Source: Thiobacillus sp.
GTDB lineage: Bacteria > Pseudomonadota > Gammaproteobacteria > Burkholderiales > Thiobacillaceae
Reading direction: 5' to 3'
DNA: 43,349 nt
Assembly (NCBI GenBank): GCA_030680405.1
Contig: JAUXVT010000023.1
Coordinates: forward strand, 1-43,349
Part shown: positions 12,309 to 22,580 of the stretch, one piece after another
How the letters are laid out: each line of letters opens with the position of its first letter
How positions within the stretch are numbered: position 1 is the stretch's first letter
Notes under the pieces: model-generated
The model's database searches: none
Told to the model about the DNA's origin: nothing
Seen by the model: the letters and a program-made list of their open reading frames with translations, nothing else
Made by a program: the position numbers and the translations under genes

Positions 12309-12352
12309 TTGCATTCGAAGTGCGTACCCGATATAGTGAGTCAACTAACTAT
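12309..12352 (+). promoter_or_regulatory. tetR promoter with overlapping palindromic operator
   Basis: TTGCAT (12309-12314) and TATAGT (12332-12337) are 17 bases apart, a good sigma-70 promoter. A 20-base palindrome, ATAGTGAGTCAACTAACTAT (12333-12352; one mismatched pair), covers the -10 box and the expected start point. Its size and the AGT..ACT core are those of TetR-family operators, so the regulator downstream probably represses itself. The arrangement also shows that translation cannot start at the GTG at 12320. Confidence 0.65.
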
Positions 12353-12370: not shown

Positions 12371-12934
12371 GTGAAAAACGCGCCGGATAAAAGGGAACGT
12401 TTGACTGATGCCGCAGCCGTGTTGATACACCGGCAAGGCTTCGCCCACACCACGCTGGCCGATATTGCGGTTGCCTCCAACGTGGCGCTGGGCAGTGTCT
12501 ATTACTACTTCAAGACCAAGGACGACGTGGCGAAGGCGATCCTGAATCGCCGACAGTCCGAAATCAGCCAGACACTTGAGGAGATCGATCAGTTGCCCGA
12601 CTCGCGCAAGCGCCTGGAGGCTCTGGTCAATATCTGGGTGAGCGACCGCGACATCGATGCCCGCTACGGCTGCCCGATCGGCAGTCTGTGCTACGAACTG
12701 GCCAAAGGGAGGGGGCCGCTGAGCAGCGAGGCTTCGGAGCCATTCAGGACGCTGTTGGCCTGGTGCGAAAAACAGTTCCGGCTGTTGGGGAAATCGAAGC
12801 AGAAGGCGGCAGCGTTTGCCCTTCACATGGTGGCTTCGCTGCAGGGAATCAGCTTGATTGCCAACGCCCTCGGCGAGCCGGACACGATCCTGTCGGAAGC
12901 AAAATTTCTGTCAGATTGGCTGCGCAATGTTTGA
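12371..12934 (+). CDS. TetR/AcrR family transcriptional regulator
   Basis: I place the start at GTG 12371, downstream of the promoter, giving 187 residues. The N-terminal HTH reads ERLTDAAAVLIHRQGFAHTT, LADIAVASNVALGSVYYYFK, TKDDVAKAIL, the classic TetR DNA-binding domain ending in the YYYFKTKDDL-like motif. The C-terminal ligand domain (about residues 65-187) has a cysteine pair (YGCPIGSLCYELA), reminiscent of TetR proteins with C-terminal domains that sense thiol or electrophile stress. The ligand is unknown. The next genes, two exported DsrE-like proteins, read in the same direction and start 149 bases later, so they are candidate targets. Confidence 0.88.
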   Translation: MKNAPDKRERLTDAAAVLIHRQGFAHTTLADIAVASNVALGSVYYYFKTKDDVAKAILNRRQSEISQTLEEIDQLPDSRKRLEALVNIWVSDRDIDARYGCPIGSLCYELAKGRGPLSSEASEPFRTLLAWCEKQFRLLGKSKQKAAAFALHMVASLQGISLIANALGEPDTILSEAKFLSDWLRNV

Positions 12935-13083: not shown

Positions 13084-13608
13084 ATGAATGCCAAATTGAC
13101 GGGGATTGCGGTCGCGACCGCTTTTGCAATGATGCCGATTCACCAGGCGCTTGCGGATGAGTTTTCACCCTATGGCACGGCCAAGGTCGACATGCACGCG
13201 ATGCCGGTGACCGATACGGTTTTCGACGTCAACTACGAAGACCCGCAGATGCTGAACACGCTGTACAACTTTGTCAAAAATACCAGAAAGGTGACCGGCG
13301 GCAAGGTCGTGGTCGTCACCCACGGTCCCGAACTGCGTGCCTTTGCCAAGGAGAATTACCTTAAATACCAGAGCGCCATGGACAAGATGGCCGAGTTGTC
13401 GAAGGAGGGCGTCGAATTCAAGATGTGCTTCAATGCCATGAAGGCGGCGGGCTACAACGCCGAGGACTTGCATGGTTTCGTCACCGTGGTACCGGCGGGC
13501 TTCCCGGAGGTGGCTTACTGGCAGGGCAAGGGCTACAAGTACATCAACCCGCTGCCGCTTCCGGTGAAGGACGTCCGCTATCTTGAACAGGCGCAACTGA
13601 AAAAATAA
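13084..13608 (+). CDS. Exported DsrE-like protein (paralog 1)
   Basis: The 174-residue protein has a signal peptide (MNAKLTGIAVATAFAMMPIH, cleavage near ALA-DE) and a DsrE/DsrF-like domain. GGKVVVVTHGPELRAFAKEN is the core strand and loop, and VEFKMCFNAMKAAGYNAEDL with HGFVTVVP carries the only cysteine of the mature protein (C115). The cysteine lies where cytoplasmic DsrE/TusD proteins carry their persulfide-forming residue. Export to the periplasm distinguishes it from them. GAGGAGACAGAAAC is the ribosome binding site. It lies between a TetR gene and a second DsrE-like gene, with a hairpin after its stop. Likely a sulfur-handling or thiol-relay protein; the substrate is not known. Confidence 0.8.
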   Translation: MNAKLTGIAVATAFAMMPIHQALADEFSPYGTAKVDMHAMPVTDTVFDVNYEDPQMLNTLYNFVKNTRKVTGGKVVVVTHGPELRAFAKENYLKYQSAMDKMAELSKEGVEFKMCFNAMKAAGYNAEDLHGFVTVVPAGFPEVAYWQGKGYKYINPLPLPVKDVRYLEQAQLKK

Positions 13609-13623
13609 TCCGTGAGCGAAAAA

Positions 13624-13648
13624 GGGGCCTGCCCGCTGGGCGGGCCCC
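13624..13648 (+). terminator. GC-rich hairpin between the two dsrE-like genes
   Basis: GGGGCCTGCCC and GGGCGGGCCCC form an 11-bp stem (one T-G pair) around a 3-base loop, 15 bases after the first dsrE-like stop. A T tract is absent, so it may act as a weak terminator or as an RNA-stabilising 3' end that lowers expression of the second gene. Confidence 0.55.
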
Positions 13649-13712
13649 TGGCATATCCACAGCAACATTCAGTTGTTCATTCACCGGCACAAACCTTGAT
13701 TGGAGCGGGCAA

Positions 13713-14195
13713 ATGAAGTGGGGATTTCTCCTGATATCGATGCTTGCGCTGTCGGCCCATGCGCGGCATGTCGATGCGAATGACCTGGCCCCTTGGGGCA
13801 GCGCAACCGAGATTCAGCAAACCTATAGCGGACAGAAAGTGGTGTTCGATACGACGTCGGAGTCGCTTGCCGGCCTGACGAGCGTGCTCGACCGGGCAAG
13901 CCTCATCAGCGTGCTGAACGGCGCCGATCCGCTGGACAACAAGATCGTGATCGTGCTGCACGGGGGCGCCATTCCGTTTTTTGCGATCAAGAACTATACA
14001 AAGCACAAGGAATTGATGCATCGGGCGCAGAGCCTTTCCGTGGGGGAGGTGGTCGAATACCGGATGTGCAGGGCGGCCGCCCACCTTCAGGGCTTCAAGC
14101 CCGAGGATATCCACGGCTTCGTCAAGATGGTCCCGATGGCCGATGCGGAAATCGTGCGGCTGCAGCAGGAAGAAGGCTTTGCCTACATGCAATAA
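13713..14195 (+). CDS. Exported DsrE-like protein (paralog 2)
   Basis: The 160-residue protein begins with a signal peptide (MKWGFLLISMLALSAHA) and has the blocks NKIVIVLHGGAIPFFAIKNY, VEYRMCRAAAHLQGFKPEDI and HGFVKMVPMADAEIVRLQQE. The single mature cysteine is C119 in RMCR. It resembles the protein at 22029-22580 far more closely than its neighbour at 13084: both read APWG near the mature N-terminus, DLN/VLNG.DP before the core strand, and MVPMADAEIVRLQQE near the end. GGAGCGGGCAA is the ribosome binding site. A periplasmic sulfur or thiol role is inferred from the fold and the conserved cysteine. Confidence 0.8.
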   Translation: MKWGFLLISMLALSAHARHVDANDLAPWGSATEIQQTYSGQKVVFDTTSESLAGLTSVLDRASLISVLNGADPLDNKIVIVLHGGAIPFFAIKNYTKHKELMHRAQSLSVGEVVEYRMCRAAAHLQGFKPEDIHGFVKMVPMADAEIVRLQQEEGFAYMQ

Positions 14196-14590
14196 CCGTT
14201 ACAAAGACGGTCGGTTGGGCAATGGCTCGGGCCATGCATGCATCAATGCTGCATAGCCTTGAACAGTCGGGAACCCTGCCACGTCACCTTTCCCGATAGT
14301 CCGTCTGTCTGATCAGGCAGGGCTTTCCCGCAGGCAGCCTGCGGCGAAATCGTTGGTTCTTTTCTGTCCACGTCGCCACGGCGCGCTTCGAGTGCCAAGT
14401 TGGCTGTAACGGGTTGTTGCGGCCCGCTTGCCCGTCCTATAAGCCGGCAGTGGCAAGGGCAGGGCAAGCGCACCGTCCCTGCCCAATAAGCATGGGCTCA
14501 AGTTAAGATGGGATACACCGATTCATCAGGTATCTGTTTCGGGTGCGCATTCACTATCAATGTGTCACGCCGTACTGTCATGGAGAGATG
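14196..14590. other. Intergenic gap with a strong hairpin
   Basis: No gene is supportable in these 395 bases. A perfect stem GGGCAGGG / CCCTGCCC (14457-14464 and 14477-14484, 12-base loop) lies about 105 bases before the HDOD gene and may end transcripts from the left. A promoter for the HDOD gene is expected in 14490-14570, but I cannot define its boxes. Confidence 0.4.
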
Positions 14591-15421
14591 ATGTCGCAGC
14601 AACCGAAAAGCCTGGCAGCCTGGCTCGCCTTTTTGGGGCAGGCTGATATCCCTGTTTTAAAGCACACGGCGCGCGAACTCGAACGTCTGAGCGCCGATGA
14701 GTCACTTCTCAATGCTCGCAGCATTGCCAATGCCGTGACCGACGATCCGCTGATGACGGTCAAGCTGCTGCGCTATATGCAGACGCACAAGCATCGCAAC
14801 CAGAAATATGAGCTGGTGGACGTGAAGGAGGCGCTGCTCATGATGGGCCTGGATGCCTTCTTCCGCGAGGTGCCGGCGACGCCGATTTCAGAAGACATGC
14901 TGCATGGCCACATCGAGGCGCTGGTGCATCTGCTGCATACGGTTCGGCGTGCGCAGCGTTCGGCGCATTACGCATTTGACTGGGCGCTGCGCCTGCACGA
15001 TCTGCATGCGGAAGAGGTGCACGTGTCTGCGCTGCTCTACCATGTCGCCGAAATGTTGATGTGGTGTTTTAACCCCGGGCAGATGCTCGAAATCCAGAAG
15101 CGGCAGGAGGCCGACACCACGCTGCGCAGCGCGGATGTGCAGAAACAGGTGCTGGGTTTTACCGGCATGGATTTGCAGCGCCAGTTGACGATTGAATGGA
15201 AATTGCCCGAATTGCTGCTGAACCTGATGGATCCGGCACAGGCGAAGACGACCCGGGTGCGCAATGTGAAGCTGGCGGCCAATCTGGCACGACATTCCGC
15301 CCAGGGCTGGGATAACGACGCCTTGCCGGATGATTACCGCGAGATCGCCGCATTGCTGCGGATGGAGCCGGACAAGGTGGCAGCGCTGGTCAAGTCAGTC
15401 CCTGCTGTCGTTCAATGCTAG
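14591..15421 (+). CDS. HDOD domain signalling protein
   Basis: The ATG at 14591 is 5 bases after GGAG, so I prefer it to the ATG at 14588. The 276-residue protein is a single HDOD domain: LAFLGQADIPVLKHTARELE starts it, SIANAVTDDPLMTVKLLRYM is the first conserved block, EALLMMGLDAFFREVPATPI the second, and VSALLYHVAEMLMWCFNPGQ the third. The HD dyad of true hydrolases is not preserved, as usual in HDOD. Such proteins act as scaffolds in c-di-GMP, stress or motility signalling. Its 3' end faces a FlhG-like ATPase and a GGDEF gene, 28 bases away, which fits a signalling neighbourhood. Confidence 0.85.
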   Translation: MSQQPKSLAAWLAFLGQADIPVLKHTARELERLSADESLLNARSIANAVTDDPLMTVKLLRYMQTHKHRNQKYELVDVKEALLMMGLDAFFREVPATPISEDMLHGHIEALVHLLHTVRRAQRSAHYAFDWALRLHDLHAEEVHVSALLYHVAEMLMWCFNPGQMLEIQKRQEADTTLRSADVQKQVLGFTGMDLQRQLTIEWKLPELLLNLMDPAQAKTTRVRNVKLAANLARHSAQGWDNDALPDDYREIAALLRMEPDKVAALVKSVPAVVQC

Positions 15422-15449
15422 GGAAGCTTGCCCCCAGGCTGCGTATGGA

Positions 15450-16286
15450 CTACGTCGGCTTGGGGATGACGCTTTCTTCCAGCTTGCGGGCGAGTTGCGA
15501 AATGGCCACGCCAGCGGGGCAGCCGGGCGTGGCCTGCATCAGCAACTGGCGGCGCATCACGGCCTGACGCACTTCGGGGTCGACGGGAATATCGCCCATG
15601 TGGACTAGGCGAATGGGGCGGTCGGGCTCGGTGACGACGAAGCGGTCGAGTACTTGTTGCAGCTGACTGGTGATGGCTTGGCCAGAACCGGGGCGGGCGG
15701 CCTGGTTGACGAGCACGCGCACGGTCTGCCGTTGTTGCTGTCCCACCAGCACTTTGATGGTGGCGTAGGCATCGGTGAGCGAGGTCGGCTCGGGGGTGGC
15801 GACCATCAGCACTTCGGACGCCAGCGAAACGGCGAACAGGACGACGTCGGAAATCCCGGCACCGGTGTCCAGCAGGACGACGTCGTAATGCGGCACCAGG
15901 CTGCTGATGATGCGCACGAATTCGTCACGCACTTCGGGCGTCAGGCGCGAATACTCGACCATGCCGGAGCCGGCCAGCAGCACGGAAAAACCGCCCGGCG
16001 CCTGAAGAATGGCGTCTTCCAGCTTGGCCTTGCCGGTGAACACGTCGTGCAGCGTGATCTTGGGGTACAGGTTGAGCACCACGTCGAGATTGGCGAGGCC
16101 GAGGTCGGCGTCGAGCACCAGCACCTTGTGGCCGCGTTTGGCCAGCGCGGCGGCGAGGTTGGCTGAGACAAAAGTCTTGCCGACGCCGCCCTTGCCGCTG
16201 GTGACGGCGATGACTTTGCCCAGCGGCTTCAAGGGAACCTTGGCCGTGCCCGGGCTTATAGCGGTGGGAGTCAGTACATCGTTCAT
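15450..16286 (-). CDS. FlhG/FleN-like MinD-family ATPase
   Basis: The 278-residue P-loop ATPase has the deviant Walker A motif [10 protein letters not shown] (about residues 30-39), the switch I region [20 protein letters not shown], and the Walker B-type block [20 protein letters not shown]. The sequence matches FlhG/FleN and the related MotR group (GLANLDV.LNL.P). FlhG counts flagella by acting on FlhF and FleQ, but neither is present here. It lacks the FleQ-interacting N-terminal motif as far as I can tell. Its start overlaps the stop of the upstream GGDEF gene by 4 bases (16283-16286), so the two are translationally coupled. Confidence 0.83.
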
Positions 16287-17080
16287 GCGTTCACTCGCGT
16301 CGTGGCGTTGCCCTGGGCATCATGGGGGGCGTCGCCCGAAATATTTTCAATCGTGACCACCTCATCCATGATGAAGCGGCCAAACAACAGCCTTTTTTCT
16401 TCTGCGCTGACCGAAAGCTCCTGTGGCTGATCCAGGCATACCTGGTTGCGGCCGCCGGATTTGGCGCGGTAAAGCTGCAGGTCGGCGCGCTCGATCCACA
16501 AGTCGGCGGTGGAGCGCACCCATTCCGGCGCGTAGGCACCACCGATGCTGATCGTGGCCTGGACGCTAAGTTGCGGTGCCACGGGTAACGAGAGCGATGC
16601 AACGGTTTGGCGAATCCGCTCGGCCACGGCATGTCCGAAAAGGGGCCGGCAGTGGGGCAGGATCACGGCGAATTCTTCGCCGCCGTAGCGGGCGACGGTG
16701 TCCATGGGGCGCACGCAGTCCGTCAGGCAGTTAGCAATCGCCTGCAGCACCTGGTCGCCGGCTAGATGGCCATGGGTGTCGTTGATGGACTTGAAGTGGT
16801 CGATGTCCAGCAACAGCAGCAGCACCGATTCGCCGGAACGTGCGACGGCTTCGATCGAGCGCTCGAGTATCGAGCGGAGATGTCGGCGGTTTCCCAGCCC
16901 CGTCAATGGATCCTTGAGCGAGATCTCGCACAGGCCATCAATCACGCGCTGCAAATAGTCGGTGGCTGATTCGCCGGCTTCCTGCTGGCTATTTTTTGCG
17001 TCGTGCTTTAGCAGGGCGCGCGCGTCATCGAGCTGCAGGGCTTGCAGCTCGATCTGGGGGAATGGGGTCAGGGGGGCCAA
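16283..17080 (-). CDS. GGDEF diguanylate cyclase
   Basis: The 265-residue protein makes cyclic di-GMP from two GTP. The GGDEF domain covers about residues 50-215: [20 protein letters not shown] opens it, [18 protein letters not shown] binds metal, and the active-site motif is GGEEF at 133-137. RPMD at 124-127 lies 5 residues before it, the exact spacing of the RxxD inhibitory site, so product inhibition is likely. There is no membrane segment or sensor domain; the N-terminal 45 residues are a short helical region, and the tail after 215 is unusual ([20 protein letters not shown]). It forms an operon with the FlhG-like gene. Confidence 0.9.
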
Positions 17081-17096
17081 AGGGGGTTTCAGTACC

Positions 17097-17260
17097 TAGT
17101 GTCGTGAATCAGAAATATCGAAACATAAAACAGCGTCTTTTTCCGCATGGCGGCGTTGCTCGTCGTTGCCATATTCCCGACTATGTCGCCTCCTCGCGCC
17201 TTGCCCTGCGAAAAAATCCATCCATTTTATTTGCCCCGCTATTTCTGATTTACGACACTA
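17097..17260. mobile_element. 164-bp MITE, IS630/Tc1-like ends
   Basis: The left end TAGTGTCGTGAATCAGAAAT (17097-17116) matches the reverse complement of 17241-17260 at 19 of 20 positions. The outermost TA on each side could be the 2-bp target duplication typical of IS630/Tc1-mariner elements, leaving 18-bp terminal repeats that start GTGTCG. The 124-base centre has no transposase. The element sits 16 bases from the start of the GGDEF gene, where it may supply or disturb the promoter. The gap from 17261 to 17534 holds no gene; it is AT-rich to about 17340. Confidence 0.75.
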
Positions 17261-17460
17261 GCGTTCAAAATTGGACAAAGGACCAAGAGAGGAAACTCAA
17301 CTACTTTTGTATTAAGTATTTTTTCGTATTAAATATGTTGGCAATTGCACCTTTGATCAAGCGCCAGTTGGAAATCAGGCGGGTTTGCGTTGCTGCCTTT
17401 GCGTTAACTGCTGCATCCATGACTTCACTGCCCGAACAGGGTGGGGTGGGGTTCCCGCAG

Positions 17461-17490
17461 ATCAAGCAGGAGGGAACTTCCCTCCTTGAT
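17461..17490 (-). terminator. Hairpin downstream of trpB2
   Basis: ATCAAGcAGGAGGGAA and TTCCCTCCTTGAT form a stem of 9 perfect pairs extended by 4-5 more across a one-base bulge. It lies about 45 bases past the trpB2 stop on its transcript. No U-rich tail follows, so termination is uncertain. Confidence 0.4.
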
Positions 17491-17534
17491 GCAGCAAGCC
17501 GTCTTGCGCTATGCATCCTGGCACAGGAGGCAAA

Positions 17535-18887
17535 TCACCCCACCTTGGGCAAGCGCTCCAGTGCGGCCTTGATCGCTTCTTCCGGGTAGGCGAAGTCTTC
17601 CAGCTTGCCGCTGAAGTAGCTGTCGTAGGCGGCCATGTCGAAGTGGCCGTGACCGGAGAGGTTAAAGAACAGTGTCTTCGCCTCGCCGCTTTCCTTGCAG
17701 CGCAGGGCCTCATCGATGCAGGCGGCGATGGCGTGGTTGGATTCGGGGGCGGGGATGATGCCTTCGGCACGGGCGAAGGTGACGCCGGCCTGGAAAGTGG
17801 CAAGCTGGGGCACGGCTACCGCCTCGAGCAGTTTTTCGTGGTAGAGCTGCGACACCAGCGCCGAGTCGCCGTGATAACGCAGGCCGCCAGCGTGGATGCC
17901 GGGCGGCATGAAGTCGTGGCCGAGGGTGTACATCAGCATCATCGGCGTCAGCTTGGCGGTGTCGCCGAAATCGTAGGCGTAGTGGCCGCGCGTCAGGGTC
18001 GGGCAGGAGGTGGGCTCCACCGCGACCAGGCGCACGTTCTTGCCAGCAGCCTTGTCAGCAAAGAAGGGGAAGGCCACGCCGCCGAAATTGGAGCCGCCGC
18101 CGCAGGGAGCGAAGATCATGTCCGGGTAGTCCCCGGCTTTTTCGAACTGTTTCTTGGCTTCCAGGCCGATCACGGTCTGGTGCAGCAGGACATGATTCAA
18201 CACCGAGCCCAGGGCGTAATTGGTATCGGGACGCGAGGCGGCATCCTCCACCGCTTCGGAAATCGCCAGCCCGAGCGAGCCCGGGTTGTCCGGGTCTTCC
18301 GCCAGCGCGGCACGGCCGGTGCTGGTTTCCATGCTCGGGCTGGCGAACACTTCCGCGCCCCAGGTCTGCATCATGGAACGGCGGTAGGGCTTCTGTCCGT
18401 AGCTGACCTTGACCATATACACCCGCACTTCCAGCCCGAACATCTGGCCTGCCAGCGCCATGGCGCAGCCCCATTGCCCGGCTCCGGTTTCTGTGGCGAT
18501 GCGCTTGATGCCGGCTTCGGCGTTGTAATAGGCCTGCGCGACCGAGGTGTTGACCTTGTGCGAGCCGGCCGGGGAGACGCCTTCGTACTTGTAGTAGATC
18601 TTCGCCGGGGTGCCGAGCGCCGCTTCCAGGCGATGGGCGCGGAACAGCGGGGAGGGGCGCCACAGCTGATAGATCTCGCGCACTTTTTCCGGGATCGGAA
18701 TCCATCTTTCTGCCGACATTTCCTGCTCGATCAGGCTCATTGGAAAGATCGCCGTCAGCGCCTCGGGTCCGATTGGCTTGCCGTCCGGACCCAGCGGCGG
18801 CGCCGGCGGATTGGGCATGTCGGCGACGACGTTGTACCAGTGGATGGGAATTTCGGATTCGTCGAGCAGGAACTTGGTTTGCGGCAT
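17535..18887 (-). CDS. Tryptophan synthase beta chain-like protein (TrpB2)
   Basis: The 450-residue PLP enzyme is longer than the TrpB at 34175. It has the TrpB2 N-terminal extension ([20 protein letters not shown]), the PLP lysine in AGSHKVNTS (K111), [20 protein letters not shown], and the phosphate-binding loop [16 protein letters not shown]. TrpB2 enzymes use free indole plus serine to make tryptophan, or act as serine deaminases, and do not pair with TrpA. The start at 18887 has the ribosome binding site AAAGGGAGACC. A possible promoter just upstream on the minus strand reads TTGTCC, 16 bases, TAATAC. It is a single gene, away from the trpFBA cluster. Confidence 0.88.
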
Positions 18888-19383
18888 GGCGGTCTCCCTT
18901 TTGTATTTTGTATTAACGATAACTGTATTGCGGACAAGCAAGCCTACTTAAATAATCATCGGCCAATCGCGATATGCCGTCAACGGACCAGACTTAGAGA
19001 TGGGTCTTACCTTTTTCCTTCAAAGGATGATGAAGTGGCTTTGATCTCTCTCAAGATCTTTGCAGGCTGAATGCCAAGCCAGAGCATAATCCTGTAGCCC
19101 AAGCGGCTGAAACCGCCGCCGCACAAGCCATGCGGGCCAGGTTCCCTGTTTCCTCATCAGGATGTGGGAACCCATGCGGATCCGGCTTATCGGTTGAGAT
19201 ATTCGACAGAAAAGAAGAACGGGTAAATCGTGAGGCCGACCATTTCCTCGAAGTTGCCTGCCACCTGTCTTGGGCTGGCGAAGCTGCTCATTTTCCTCGC
19301 CCCGGCAGTCCGGCTGGGGGGTGAACGATGCAACGATTGTTTATCCCCTTCCCCAATCCGCGGCCGCATTGCGCAAGCGTGCT

Positions 19384-19412
19384 AAAGGGGTCAGCTTCGA
19401 GTCATTTTTCGC
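19384..19412 (+). repeat. Dispersed GTCAGCTTCGA motif, copy at 19.4 kb
   Basis: AAAGGGGTCAGCTTCGAGTC then ATTTTTCGC. It shares about 20 positions with 7127-7154, and AAAGGGGTC plus GCTT with the minus strand near 1348-1370. It lies in a decayed gap, consistent with a mobile-element end or REP-type unit. Confidence 0.4.
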
Positions 19413-19569
19413 GAAGGTTATGGGCGAGCCTGCTGACTGCTGGGCGCCTGGTACTTGATCAGAAATCCAGCCCAAGACGGATGCCCTCCCGTTTGTCCTT
19501 TGCTGATCAGCGGATCATCCGTTTTGGGCGCTGTCGTGGGCGGGGCGAATTCCAGCCGCCAAGTTGCCC

Positions 19570-19719
19570 ATGCTGCTGAGCTATGGCGTGGATCTGCTGG
19601 CCGCAGCGCTCGGCGCAAAGAAGTTCGGCGCTTCGCCCAGAGCGCTGACAGGGGCGGCCACGCAGGCGGGCGTGAGGGCAACGCTTGGACTGCTGTTCTC
19701 GTCCAATAACCTTCAATAA
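19570..19719 (+). pseudogene. Truncated second copy of the DUF456 gene
   Basis: The frame reads LLSYGVDLLAAALGAKKFGA, SPRALTGAA, then directly TQAGVRATLGLLFSSNNLQ-stop. The intact gene at 7836-8285 has LLSYGIDFLAAALGAKKFGA, SPRAITGAA, then 39 further residues before TQAGVGGTLDLLFGA. So this copy lacks the N-terminal half, has a clean in-frame deletion of 39 codons, and has lost its last helix. The deletion ends sit in GCGGC, a short direct repeat that could have recombined. About 75% of shared residues match, so the duplication is old or the copy came from another strain. Confidence 0.75.
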
Positions 19720-19773
19720 TCCGCCACCTGAAAAGGAAGCAGGGCAGCCTGGGCCACCCCGTTTCAGCAAGCG

Positions 19774-20697
19774 TCAACGCGCCAGCATGACGAGTTCAGG
19801 CGCCTCACAGCACGCTGCCTGCGGCGGGAAGGGCATGCGCTTCACCTCGTTGCCCTTGTCATTGCGGTAAATCAGTTCGCGGGTGGAAAAGTCGAATTCC
19901 GGGTGGCGCGGATCGCTCCACTGGTTGAGGAAATGCACGTAGAAAGCCGAGAACAAGCCTTGCGTGGGCTTGTTCTTGCGCAGGGCGAAGACGTATTCCG
20001 GCTGGGTCTTCAGTTCGTGGCCATCCTGGCAATACTGCACCCACACGTATTCCCCGGTGACGATCAGGTTCCAGAAGGGTGGGTCCTCGTAGAACTTGAG
20101 CGTGACCTGCTTGCCGGCGGCCGCCAGGCTGGCCAGCCGCTCGATTGTGGCCGCGGTCTCCCGGCAGTAGGTCTCAAGCAGCGGGTCGGGATCGCCCAGT
20201 GATTGCACGCGCCGCATGGCGCCCGCGCCGTAAGGGTTCATCAGCATGACCCGCAATTCGTAACTGTTGTCGATCACGCGGCGCAGCTTGCGCCGTTCCG
20301 AAACGAAGGTATCGAATCCGGTAACCGACATCACCGATACGTCGCGGGTACCAGTGATCCGGTCGAGCAGCTTGCGGTCGGTCCAGCGCGAGAACCAGCT
20401 GCCTTCTTCGCGCACATGCACCAGCGAGACCAAGCGGTTCATCCGGTGACTGCGCCGACCTTGCTGTGCGTTGAGGAATAGATTGAACAGCAGCACCAGC
20501 AAGGCGGCAAAACTGATTTCGTTGATCAGCAGCATCTGCGAATCGTCTTCCACCATCGGCCACCAGGTGAACAGAATGAATTTCGCCAGCATGGGCAGGG
20601 AAAAGGCGATGCCTACAGCCAGGAGCGTGACCCCGATATGGCTGAGGATATGTCGAAGGGTGTGAAAAATACCGGGGAAATGCGGGTTGCGCTCCAT
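19774..20697 (-). CDS. Two-helix membrane protein with large cytoplasmic domain
   Basis: The ATG at 20697 follows ACAGGAGACTCGCTT, giving 307 residues. Two membrane helices (about residues 14-42, VTLLAVGIAFSLPMLAKFIL, and 58-78, ISFAALLVLLFNLFLNA) precede a soluble domain of about 220 residues. That part has DVSVMSVTGFDTFVSERRKL, YELRVMLMNPYGAGAMRRVQ, a helix with IERLASLAAAGKQVTLKFYE and a C-terminal strand region. The order resembles phospholipase D-like folds used by membrane-anchored sensors, but no HKD motif is present, so I do not assign catalysis. It is probably a single gene. Function is unknown. Confidence 0.65.
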   Translation of the reverse strand: MERNPHFPGIFHTLRHILSHIGVTLLAVGIAFSLPMLAKFILFTWWPMVEDDSQMLLINEISFAALLVLLFNLFLNAQQGRRSHRMNRLVSLVHVREEGSWFSRWTDRKLLDRITGTRDVSVMSVTGFDTFVSERRKLRRVIDNSYELRVMLMNPYGAGAMRRVQSLGDPDPLLETYCRETAATIERLASLAAAGKQVTLKFYEDPPFWNLIVTGEYVWVQYCQDGHELKTQPEYVFALRKNKPTQGLFSAFYVHFLNQWSDPRHPEFDFSTRELIYRNDKGNEVKRMPFPPQAACCEAPELVMLAR

Positions 20698-20951
20698 AAG
20701 CGAGTCTCCTGTCGCCACCATGCATCGGTTGGCTCTGACGAACGCAGATTCCGGCCCCCCAGTGGCGGGCGGGCCTGCACAAAAAAAGGTTGGAAGCGGG
20801 TTAACGCAATAGGTTCACACGGATTGCGTGCCCCCAGTCGGGCCAGGCGCCCTGTGCAGAGCGGGAACCCGCTTGAAATCACGATGGCACGCGTACCGTA
20901 GTTTCTTTTTCCTGGTCTCGACTCAGGGATGGACGCCGCTGCAATACGGGC
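20698..20951. other. Intergenic gap left of the CueR-type promoter
   Basis: This stretch lies between the divergent membrane-protein gene and the metal-type promoter. I see no gene. It must contain the membrane-protein promoter on the minus strand, which I cannot define. Confidence 0.3.
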
Positions 20952-20982
20952 TTGACCTTTCCATCATGGGAAGGTCTAAGGT
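20952..20982 (+). promoter_or_regulatory. CueR/MerR-type metal-responsive promoter
   Basis: TTGACC (20952-20957) and TAAGGT (20977-20982) are separated by 19 bases, the long spacer typical of MerR-family promoters. The spacer is a palindrome: GACCTTTCCAT, one base, ATGGGAAGGTC (20954-20976), with one mismatch in 11 pairs. The half-site ACCTTCCC matches copper-responsive CueR operators. The promoter points to the DUF4396 gene, 35 bases on. No merR-type regulator is in the window, so control must come from elsewhere. Confidence 0.8.
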
Positions 20983-21017
20983 GAAAACTCCTAGGTTCGT
21001 TTTTAAGGAGTGCAGAA

Positions 21018-21512
21018 ACGGAACACGCGCATCATACAACCCACGTCCCCGACTATACGCACCAGCGGGACAATCCCGGTTCGCTCAACCACATTGCGCT
21101 GCTGGCGACCCTGCACTGTCTGACTGGATGTGCCATTGGCGAAGTGGCGGGCATGGTCATCGGCACCGCGCTCGGGTGGGGAAATCTCGAAACCATCGTG
21201 CTGGCAGTCGCACTCGCTTTTCTTTCCGGCTATGTGCTGACGACTTTGCCGCTGCTGCGAAACGGCTACCGCCTGCAATCCGCCGTGCGCATCGCCCTGG
21301 CTGCCGACACGGCATCAATCGCCGTGATGGAGATCGTCGACAATCTGCTGATGCTGATCATTCCCGGCGCGATGGATGCCCCGCTGAACTCACTGCTGTT
21401 CTGGGGCAGTCTTTCGATTGCGCTTCTGGTGGCTGGGGTGGCGGCCTTTCCGCTCAACCGGTGACTGGTCGCGCGCGGGCTCGGCCACGCCATCGCACAT
21501 GGCCATCGCTGA
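21018..21512 (+). pseudogene. DUF4396 membrane protein with start-codon and stop-codon lesions
   Basis: The reading frame is continuous from 21018, but its first codon is ACG, placed 7 bases after a perfect AAGGAG; an ATG would give MEHAHHTTHVPDYTHQRDNP. Internal ATG 21144 starts inside the first helix. The body (LNHIALLATLHCLTGCAIGE, LETIVLAVALAFLSGYVLTT, DTASIAVMEIVDNLLMLIIP) is DUF4396, with about four helices. TGA at 21462-21464 stands where the family has the Trp of NRW. The same frame continues LVARGLGHAIAHGHR to a second TGA at 21510-21512. The histidine-rich ends and the CueR-type promoter suggest copper handling. Either the gene is decaying, or ACG is used as a weak start. Confidence 0.7.
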
Positions 21513-21528
21513 AAGGGTGGACGTGACT

Positions 21529-21559
21529 AGCGTGGCGCCGCTTCAGACGGCGCCACGCT
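21529..21559. terminator. Bidirectional hairpin between convergent genes
   Basis: AGCGTGGCGCCG and CGGCGCCACGCT form a perfect 12-bp stem around the 7-base loop CTTCAGA. It lies between the DUF4396 stop and the DsrC-like stop, so it can serve both transcripts. Neither side has a long T tract. Confidence 0.65.
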
Positions 21560-21568
21560 GCAAATGCC

Positions 21569-21940
21569 TTAAGCCACGCTGCCGAAGCCGCGGTCGGTGG
21601 CCATGAAGGGGGCCTTCAGTCCGGCCAGGCGACAACTCTGTGCGATGGGGCCGCCCGGAAACAGGGTATACAGGAATTTCAGTCCACCTTTCTGGTGGAA
21701 GCATTCGTCCAGGGCGTCGTGCAGATCGCGCAGGTTGATGACGGTTTCGTCTTCGTGCTGGGTGTAATAATTTTGCAGCGCGCGAATGACTTCCCAATGG
21801 TCTTCCTTGAGTTCAAGTCCTTCCTCACGCGCGATTCTGATCGCGTGGTCCCGCGTCCAGTCTAGCGGTGCATGGGGGAAATTGGGGTCGGTCACTGGCT
21901 CCTGAATCAGTTGGTTAATGTCGGTTGAAACATGCGGCAT
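21569..21940 (-). CDS. DsrC/TusE/RspA family protein lacking the terminal cysteine
   Basis: I use ATG 21940 (GAAGGAG, 6 bases upstream of it), giving 123 residues. The DsrC fold is clear: NFPHAPLDWTRDHAIRIARE, LELKEDHWEVIRALQNYYTQ and GGLKFLYTLFPGGPIAQSCR. DsrC carries two C-terminal cysteines, and the penultimate one takes the persulfide; TusE keeps that one. Here the arm reads SCRLAGLKAPFMATDRGFGS-VA: the upstream cysteine (C103) is kept and the penultimate one is replaced by an extended tail. This matches the RspA-like subgroup, thought to be regulatory rather than a sulfur carrier. It follows a DsrE-like gene by 88 bases on the same strand. Confidence 0.8.
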   Translation of the reverse strand: MPHVSTDINQLIQEPVTDPNFPHAPLDWTRDHAIRIAREEGLELKEDHWEVIRALQNYYTQHEDETVINLRDLHDALDECFHQKGGLKFLYTLFPGGPIAQSCRLAGLKAPFMATDRGFGSVA

Positions 21941-22028
21941 GGTCATCTCCTTCAGTGCTTCCATTAACCCTTTAAAAATAGGCCAGGCCTCCCCCGGATA
22001 CAAGGATCGTTTCCCGGTGCGGCAACCC

Positions 22029-22580
22029 TCAGCGCATGTAGGCATAGCCTTCCTGCTGCAGCCGCACGATCTCGGCATCCGCCATCGGCACCAGGGTGAC
22101 GAAACCATGAATAGCCTCGGGTTCGAACCCGTGCGACTCCGCCGCCAGACGGCACATGCGGAATTCGATGACGCCGGATTGCGTGGCACTCTGCGCACGC
22201 TGCATCAGTTCGTGGTACTTCGCATAATTCCTGATCGCGAAGAAGAGGATTTCATTGCCGTGCAGCACGATCACGACCTTGCTGTCGAACGGATCGGAGC
22301 CGTTGAGGTCGGCCAGCAGCATGGCGCGGCTGACCACCGAGCGCATCGCGGAATCGCTGCCGACGGTGACGTCGTACACGACTTTCTGCTTGGCGTAGGT
22401 CTGTTTCACCGCCTGGGCGTGGCCCCAGGGCGCTTCCGGCGTTGCCGCCGCCAGGCCCAGCAGCAGCGCAACAGCGAGCGCCAGGCTTGCAAGCATGCGG
22501 AACCCGGCCCGGCCATGCCGCGTGGTGCCGCTGCCGACACGCTTGCGATCGGGCGCGGCGTTGAATGGGGACATGCGCAT
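22029..22580 (-). CDS. Exported DsrE-like protein (paralog 3)
   Basis: ATG 22580 has the ribosome binding site CAGGAGACACCC and gives 183 residues. A basic leader of about 28 residues precedes a hydrophobic segment (MLASLALAVALLLGLAAA), which is either a long signal peptide or an anchor. The mature part has PWGHAQAVKQTYAKQKVVYD, KVVIVLHGNEILFFAIRNYA, IEFRMCRLAAESHGFEPEAI and HGFVTLVPMADAEIVRLQQE. C143 is the only cysteine. It is a close relative of the protein at 13713-14195. It probably forms a transcription unit with the DsrC-like gene, although the two proteins would be on opposite sides of the membrane. Confidence 0.8.
   Translation of the reverse strand: MRMSPFNAAPDRKRVGSGTTRHGRAGFRMLASLALAVALLLGLAAATPEAPWGHAQAVKQTYAKQKVVYDVTVGSDSAMRSVVSRAMLLADLNGSDPFDSKVVIVLHGNEILFFAIRNYAKYHELMQRAQSATQSGVIEFRMCRLAAESHGFEPEAIHGFVTLVPMADAEIVRLQQEGYAYMR

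Follow-up and report, generated by a model that had tools for sequence, protein, structure and literature searches.

Two neighbouring genes of a Thiobacillus genome, termed fam1 and fam2 here, probably encode accessory proteins of sulfur metabolism in the cell envelope. We propose that both products are inducible sulfane-sulfur carriers in the periplasm of sulfur-oxidising bacteria, and put the probability of this reading, full mechanism included, at about one half. An accessory, inducible carrier or buffer of sulfane sulfur in the envelope is the likeliest role because the proteins are predicted to be extracytoplasmic, are often encoded behind a cysteine-bearing TetR-type regulator, and occur in sulfur oxidisers. 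In the proposed mechanism, the TetR would repress itself and the DsrE genes from a palindrome, and the cysteines of its CPIGSLC motif would react with thiol-reactive sulfur (polysulfide or persulfide) and free the palindrome. The exported DsrE proteins would in turn accept the sulfur that sulfide:quinone oxidoreductase (SQR) or SoxYZ leaves behind. This sulfane sulfur would be held as a persulfide on one invariant cysteine of fam1 and fam2, and either kept there or passed to a membrane or cytoplasmic acceptor, for example through the DsrE2/TusA route.

The window (the whole stretch of DNA analysed, 43,349 nucleotides) forms contig C8 of a genome of 2.67 Mb, referred to below as the source genome, whose nearest named relatives are Thiobacillus. 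The source genome contains two dsrA matches (contigs C22 and C29) and one soxB match and is therefore that of a sulfur oxidiser; a one-contig genome of the genus, G010, has three dsrA matches. In the window, the TetR-type regulator (12371..12934, plus strand) is followed by fam1 (13084..13608, plus strand; signal at approximately residues 1–24; Cys115, codon 13426–13428) and fam2 (13713..14195, plus strand; Cys119, codon 14067–14069). A third gene, fam3 (22029..22580, minus strand; Cys143, codon 22152–22154), is a paralog of fam2 lying outside the TetR unit. The sequence-only reading, made before this analysis, had described these genes as encoding three DsrE-fold proteins with an N-terminal export signal and a single cysteine in the same motif, an observation that is confirmed here; the signals are predicted to be Sec signals.

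The Pfam family PF02635 (DsrE/DsrF-like) matches fam1 with 40.9 bits and fam3 with 24.9 bits, against a cut-off of 22.7. fam2 itself has no match to this family; 26 of the 55 rows of its alignment do. A DsrE fold is predicted, and no family other than DsrE was prominent in the lists of predicted-fold matches, which carry no proof. When 26 exported and 7 cytoplasmic rows are aligned, Cys115 of fam1 shares its column with the cysteines of TusD, TusC, YchN, DsrE2 and the DsrE of the source genome, and the column is occupied by L in TusB and by D in the DsrF of the source genome. fam1, fam2 and fam3 each place one cysteine in this position, and the residue is invariant in all 26 exported rows. Profile alignments also put Cys115 on the cysteine of MTH1491 (1l1s) and ST0148 (2pd2), uncharacterised archaeal DsrE proteins that are the closest solved relatives and whose solved chains lack the N-terminal extension. 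The available text of two studies identifies the cysteine of DsrE proteins as an experimentally tested sulfur-binding residue that carries a persulfide or a thiosulfonate (PMC13293266, PMC4175335). By its shared column, the cysteine noted in the sequence-only reading sits at the DsrE persulfide position.

This cysteine is kept in 287 of 287 close homologs among the matches listed (120/120 for fam1, 120/120 for fam2 and 47/47 further proteins). The three sets are the best 120 of 1150 matches to fam1, the best 120 of 623 to fam2, and the 47 new proteins among the best 120 of 4600 profile matches; they consist of close members, not distant ones. A candidate fam1–fam2 fusion, P0068, was discarded, as it is a decaying fam1 copy that has lost the cysteine and run into fam2. 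One pattern-limited scan of viral_contigs returned no viral copies.

Export was judged by a strict rule, distinct from SignalP, requiring a positive n-region without acidic residues, an uncharged hydrophobic core and a small-x-small cleavage site. This rule was used in place of an earlier, looser one that also passed cytoplasmic controls such as TusD and YchN. It was passed by 228 of the 287 homologs among the matches listed (98/120 for fam1, 91/120 for fam2 and 39/47 further proteins) and by the exported control FkpA, versus none of the 21 cytoplasmic controls, some of which were named by eye. Inspection by eye shows an acidic residue or a truncated start in many of the listed failures. Export signals are thus the norm among these homologs, and neither a lack of them nor a non-conserved cysteine, both named in the sequence-only reading as grounds for rejection, was observed. 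Of the seven DsrE genes of the source genome put through the rule, fam1, fam2, the two on contig C63 and the one on C9 pass, and the C66 paralog and fam3, read from its ATG, fail. Both the Sec export and the DsrE fold of fam1 and fam2 are predictions.

The regulator contains a TetR_N domain (PF00440, 45.9 bits against a cut-off of 24). A total of 28 distinct fam1 loci were compared, comprising the window, 15 named records and 12 loci from genus and class genomes after the duplicates L033, L036 and L037 were dropped. In 12 of them, fam1 is preceded on the same strand by an orthologous TetR gene at a distance of 19–157 nt, and fam2 follows fam1 in 7 of these 12. The order TetR–fam1(–fam2) recurs in Thiobacillus, Sulfuritalea, a Hyphomicrobium and two other families of the class, in flanks that mostly differ between genera, and all 12 orthologous TetRs contain GCP[IV]GSLC with both cysteines. 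The earlier description of a TetR gene ahead of two DsrE genes holds for the window. The 16 of 28 loci without an orthologous TetR count against the carrier role, as does the failure of fam3 and the C66 paralog under the strict signal rule.

The palindrome TAGTGAGTCAACTAACTA (12334..12351, no strand) is located at the TetR start and is predicted to be the TetR operator. The corresponding motif, tAGTnAGTtAACTnACTa, is present near the TetR start in 12 of 12 TetR loci with 12–14 of 14 positions matching, and 300 shuffles of each TetR-start region score at most 11 of 14. The seed was picked by eye from the same 12 regions, so independent support matters. As an independent check, the region ahead of fam1 was scored on the coding strand in 12 of the 16 loci that lack the orthologous TetR, giving 7–9. 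A matrix derived from the 12 sites was also applied to 17 more distant TetR loci, 7 of which outscore every one of 200 shuffles. The palindrome falls inside the longest TetR ORF, which begins at 12320, and GTG 12371 is therefore the more likely TetR start. Apart from the palindrome at the TetR gene, the source genome has no site with one mismatch or fewer; the sites with two mismatches are one palindromic copy between two NarK-like transporter genes (L043 1501–1516; genes named by eye), which may be due to chance, and four others. A reversed-pattern control gave more matches than the true pattern (18 and 23 vs 4 and 4). No genome-wide regulon, or any site past the local one, is therefore claimed for the palindrome. 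A scan for promoters and terminators gave counts near chance level.

A search at E<=1e-20 found relatives of the TetR in 66 of the 369 class genomes. Twenty of their loci were taken, three being fam1 units, and the remaining 17, in 15 of which the TetR was recognised, were covered to approximately 1.5 kb downstream. Pfam identified a TusA domain downstream of the TetR relative in three of the 17 (L071, L077 and L079), AhpC/TSA over the cut-off in four (L081, L083, L085 and L086) and below it in L082; L086 additionally encodes an Old-Yellow-Enzyme domain. An AhpC-like gene in L072 and an Old-Yellow-like gene in L083 were recognised by eye only. The rest of the 17 had no TusA, AhpC/TSA or Old-Yellow-Enzyme domain by Pfam over the same downstream distance. 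The TusA, AhpC/TSA and Old-Yellow-Enzyme neighbours place the regulator in a thiol and sulfur setting.

A role in peroxide or electrophile stress is also compatible with the peroxiredoxin and flavoenzyme neighbours. Electrophile sensing is known from TetR regulators adjoining Old Yellow Enzymes, NemR among them, and NemR-like thiol-sensing TetRs have a reactive cysteine switch. The TetR–DsrE unit might accordingly be read as a general envelope defence against thiol or electrophile stress, in which the cysteine would scavenge or repair thiols and would not have sulfur carriage as its function. The AhpC/TSA and Old-Yellow-Enzyme neighbours, the example of NemR and an AhpD-type gene in the L014 run favour this explanation, which we nevertheless regard as rather unlikely: the fold and cysteine position match sulfur carriers, TusA genes are found in the three TetR loci and in L014, and fam1 tracks genomes with dsrA and soxB.

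The last point comes from a survey of genomes. fam1 (>200 bits) is present in 6 of the 369 class genomes, the source genome included, which belong to six different families. All six have dsrA, versus 111 of the 363 others (Fisher 0.0009; 5/5 and 0.003 without the source genome), and five of the six have soxB, versus 146 of 363 (Fisher 0.04). Among nine further fam1 genomes, dsrA is present in six and missing in three. soxB was found in 14 of the 15 fam1 genomes tested and missing in one, and every one of the 15 has dsrA or soxB. The co-occurrence with sox and dsr genes raised in the sequence-only reading is borne out, and the fam1 genomes are those of sulfur oxidisers; fam1 is tied to sulfur lithotrophy as a whole and does not require dsr. 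Within the genus, only 11 of 36 genomes, some of them incomplete, have fam1 at the same bit threshold, indicating that it is dispensable for sulfur oxidation itself.

Other sulfur- and thiol-related contexts of fam1 were seen at one locus each. In L014 (Thiobacillus UBA6205), one strand carries, in this order, a different type of TetR that lacks the palindrome, the AhpD-type gene, TusA, DsrE2 (NF047629, over cut-off) and fam1. In L032, fam1 and an SQR-like gene are divergent; the best model of the SQR-like gene, type III SQR, scores far below its cut-off. In L019, the divergent neighbour of fam1 encodes two thioredoxin-type stretches. A dsrAB pair lies approximately 6 kb from fam1 in L027, with other genes between.

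The source genome has eight such DsrE genes, three on C8, two on C63 and one each on C9, C66 and C54. Supported branches of the tree are fam1, a group of fam2, fam3 and the C9 gene, the C63b type and the C66 type, and TusB falls next to the C54 paralog on a long branch. A possible single clade of the exported set received a p-AU of 0.198, and trees one change away from it made up 6% of the bootstrap trees. Eight divergent copies with unlike neighbours in one genome, the decayed copy in P0068 and the patchy distribution would suit ordinary, uncharacterised DsrE-family paralogs whose cysteine is structural or vestigial and which have no common role and a local TetR link. We consider this very improbable, as the cysteine is invariant both in the homologs listed and in the exported rows aligned, and the unit and its palindrome are kept across unlike genomic settings. 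The two predicted exported DsrE genes on C63 lie in a stretch (L008 6868–7377, 8660–8968 and 11098–11595, all minus strand) with genes for a small c-type cytochrome and RsgA-like, porin-like and sigma factor-like proteins nearby (names by eye), and this gene order largely recurs in L063, L064 and L065.

DsrE of DsrEFH and TusD of TusBCD are cytoplasmic sulfurtransferases. The fam proteins share 12–13% identity with them, differ in their predicted signal peptides and in having approximately 40 residues ahead of the first strand, and are encoded alongside a TetR gene instead of DsrF/DsrH or TusC/TusB genes. No dsrF–dsrH or tusC–tusB partners were found among the window neighbours, and the source genome's own dsrE and dsrF are on contig C22. 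The DsrE2 cysteine occupies the same column as that of fam1, and a DsrE2 gene precedes fam1 in L014. The groups named in the available text of PMC4175335 are DsrE and DsrE2 to DsrE5; that text contains no exported group and no mention of a signal peptide. The DsrE of cable-bacteria DsrEFH type II is likewise divergent and was shown to bear sulfur on its conserved cysteine, but DsrEFH type II is a three-gene complex working with TusA and DsrC, and the term signal peptide is absent from the available text (PMC13293266). Among the titles and abstract openings of the open-licence papers listed, we found no description of exported DsrE proteins or of a TetR–DsrE unit. The fold and chemistry are known, and the predicted compartment and the regulator are new.

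A variant of the chemistry would be the binding of thiosulfate as a Cys-S-thiosulfonate, as in DsrE3A, here serving to process tetrathionate-type intermediates in the periplasm. In the Metallosphaera DsrE3A, the corresponding cysteine takes up thiosulfate from tetrathionate, according to the available text of PMC4175335, but this protein has two cysteines in a Cys-x7-Cys pair, unlike the single cysteine of the fam1-type proteins, and we hold this alternative to be improbable. For persulfide carriage, a more elaborate version is conceivable if doubtful: a dedicated inducible relay at the periplasmic face of the inner membrane, in which the TetR would serve as persulfide sensor and the exported DsrE proteins would pass sulfur from SQR or SoxYZ to DsrE2–TusA, supplying a missing periplasmic link. 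In the text available, work on Hyphomicrobium invokes DsbA, SoxS and SoxT transporters for sulfane-sulfur import (PMC11582611). The fam DsrE proteins offer a concrete and cheaply testable candidate for the step of sulfane sulfur from periplasmic SoxYZ or SQR to the cytoplasm. The Hyphomicrobium sHdrR and SoxR are likewise local repressors with two conserved cysteines beside sulfur genes; they are of the ArsR type, as described in the available text of PMC12423496, whereas the fam1 regulator is of the TetR type and its signal a candidate only. This regulator could add a TetR class to the ArsR-type sensors of sulfane sulfur.

fam3 adjoins a gene for a DsrC-like protein (21569..21940, minus strand; Pfam DsrC, 75 bits), which keeps only the inner of the two C-terminal cysteines and thus differs from two-cysteine DsrC. 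An ortholog is present in 24 of 25 genus genomes, and the gene is apparently a core gene. By ORF calls, a DsrE gene adjoins the ortholog in two of five neighbourhoods (the window and L035, not L012, L016 or L062), and a conserved DsrE–DsrC unit was rejected on these five. Elsewhere, a predicted exported fam3-like DsrE gene lies beside TRAP-transporter-like genes (named by eye) in L056 (7806–8276, minus strand) and likewise in L058 and L059. Given this adjacency and the different neighbours in three genomes, the fam3–DsrC pair is considered local. Where a separate sulfur or thiol relay in the envelope had been suggested from the DNA alone, the cysteine position, the predicted export signals and the sulfur-oxidiser genomes are consistent with it, and DsrC as a conserved partner was not upheld. 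Beside the TetR–fam1–fam2 unit, HDOD, MinD-like and GGDEF-like genes occupy positions 14543–17080 of the window; L012, L035 and L062 keep their order and L016 that of the HDOD and MinD-like genes, whether or not TetR and fam2 are present.
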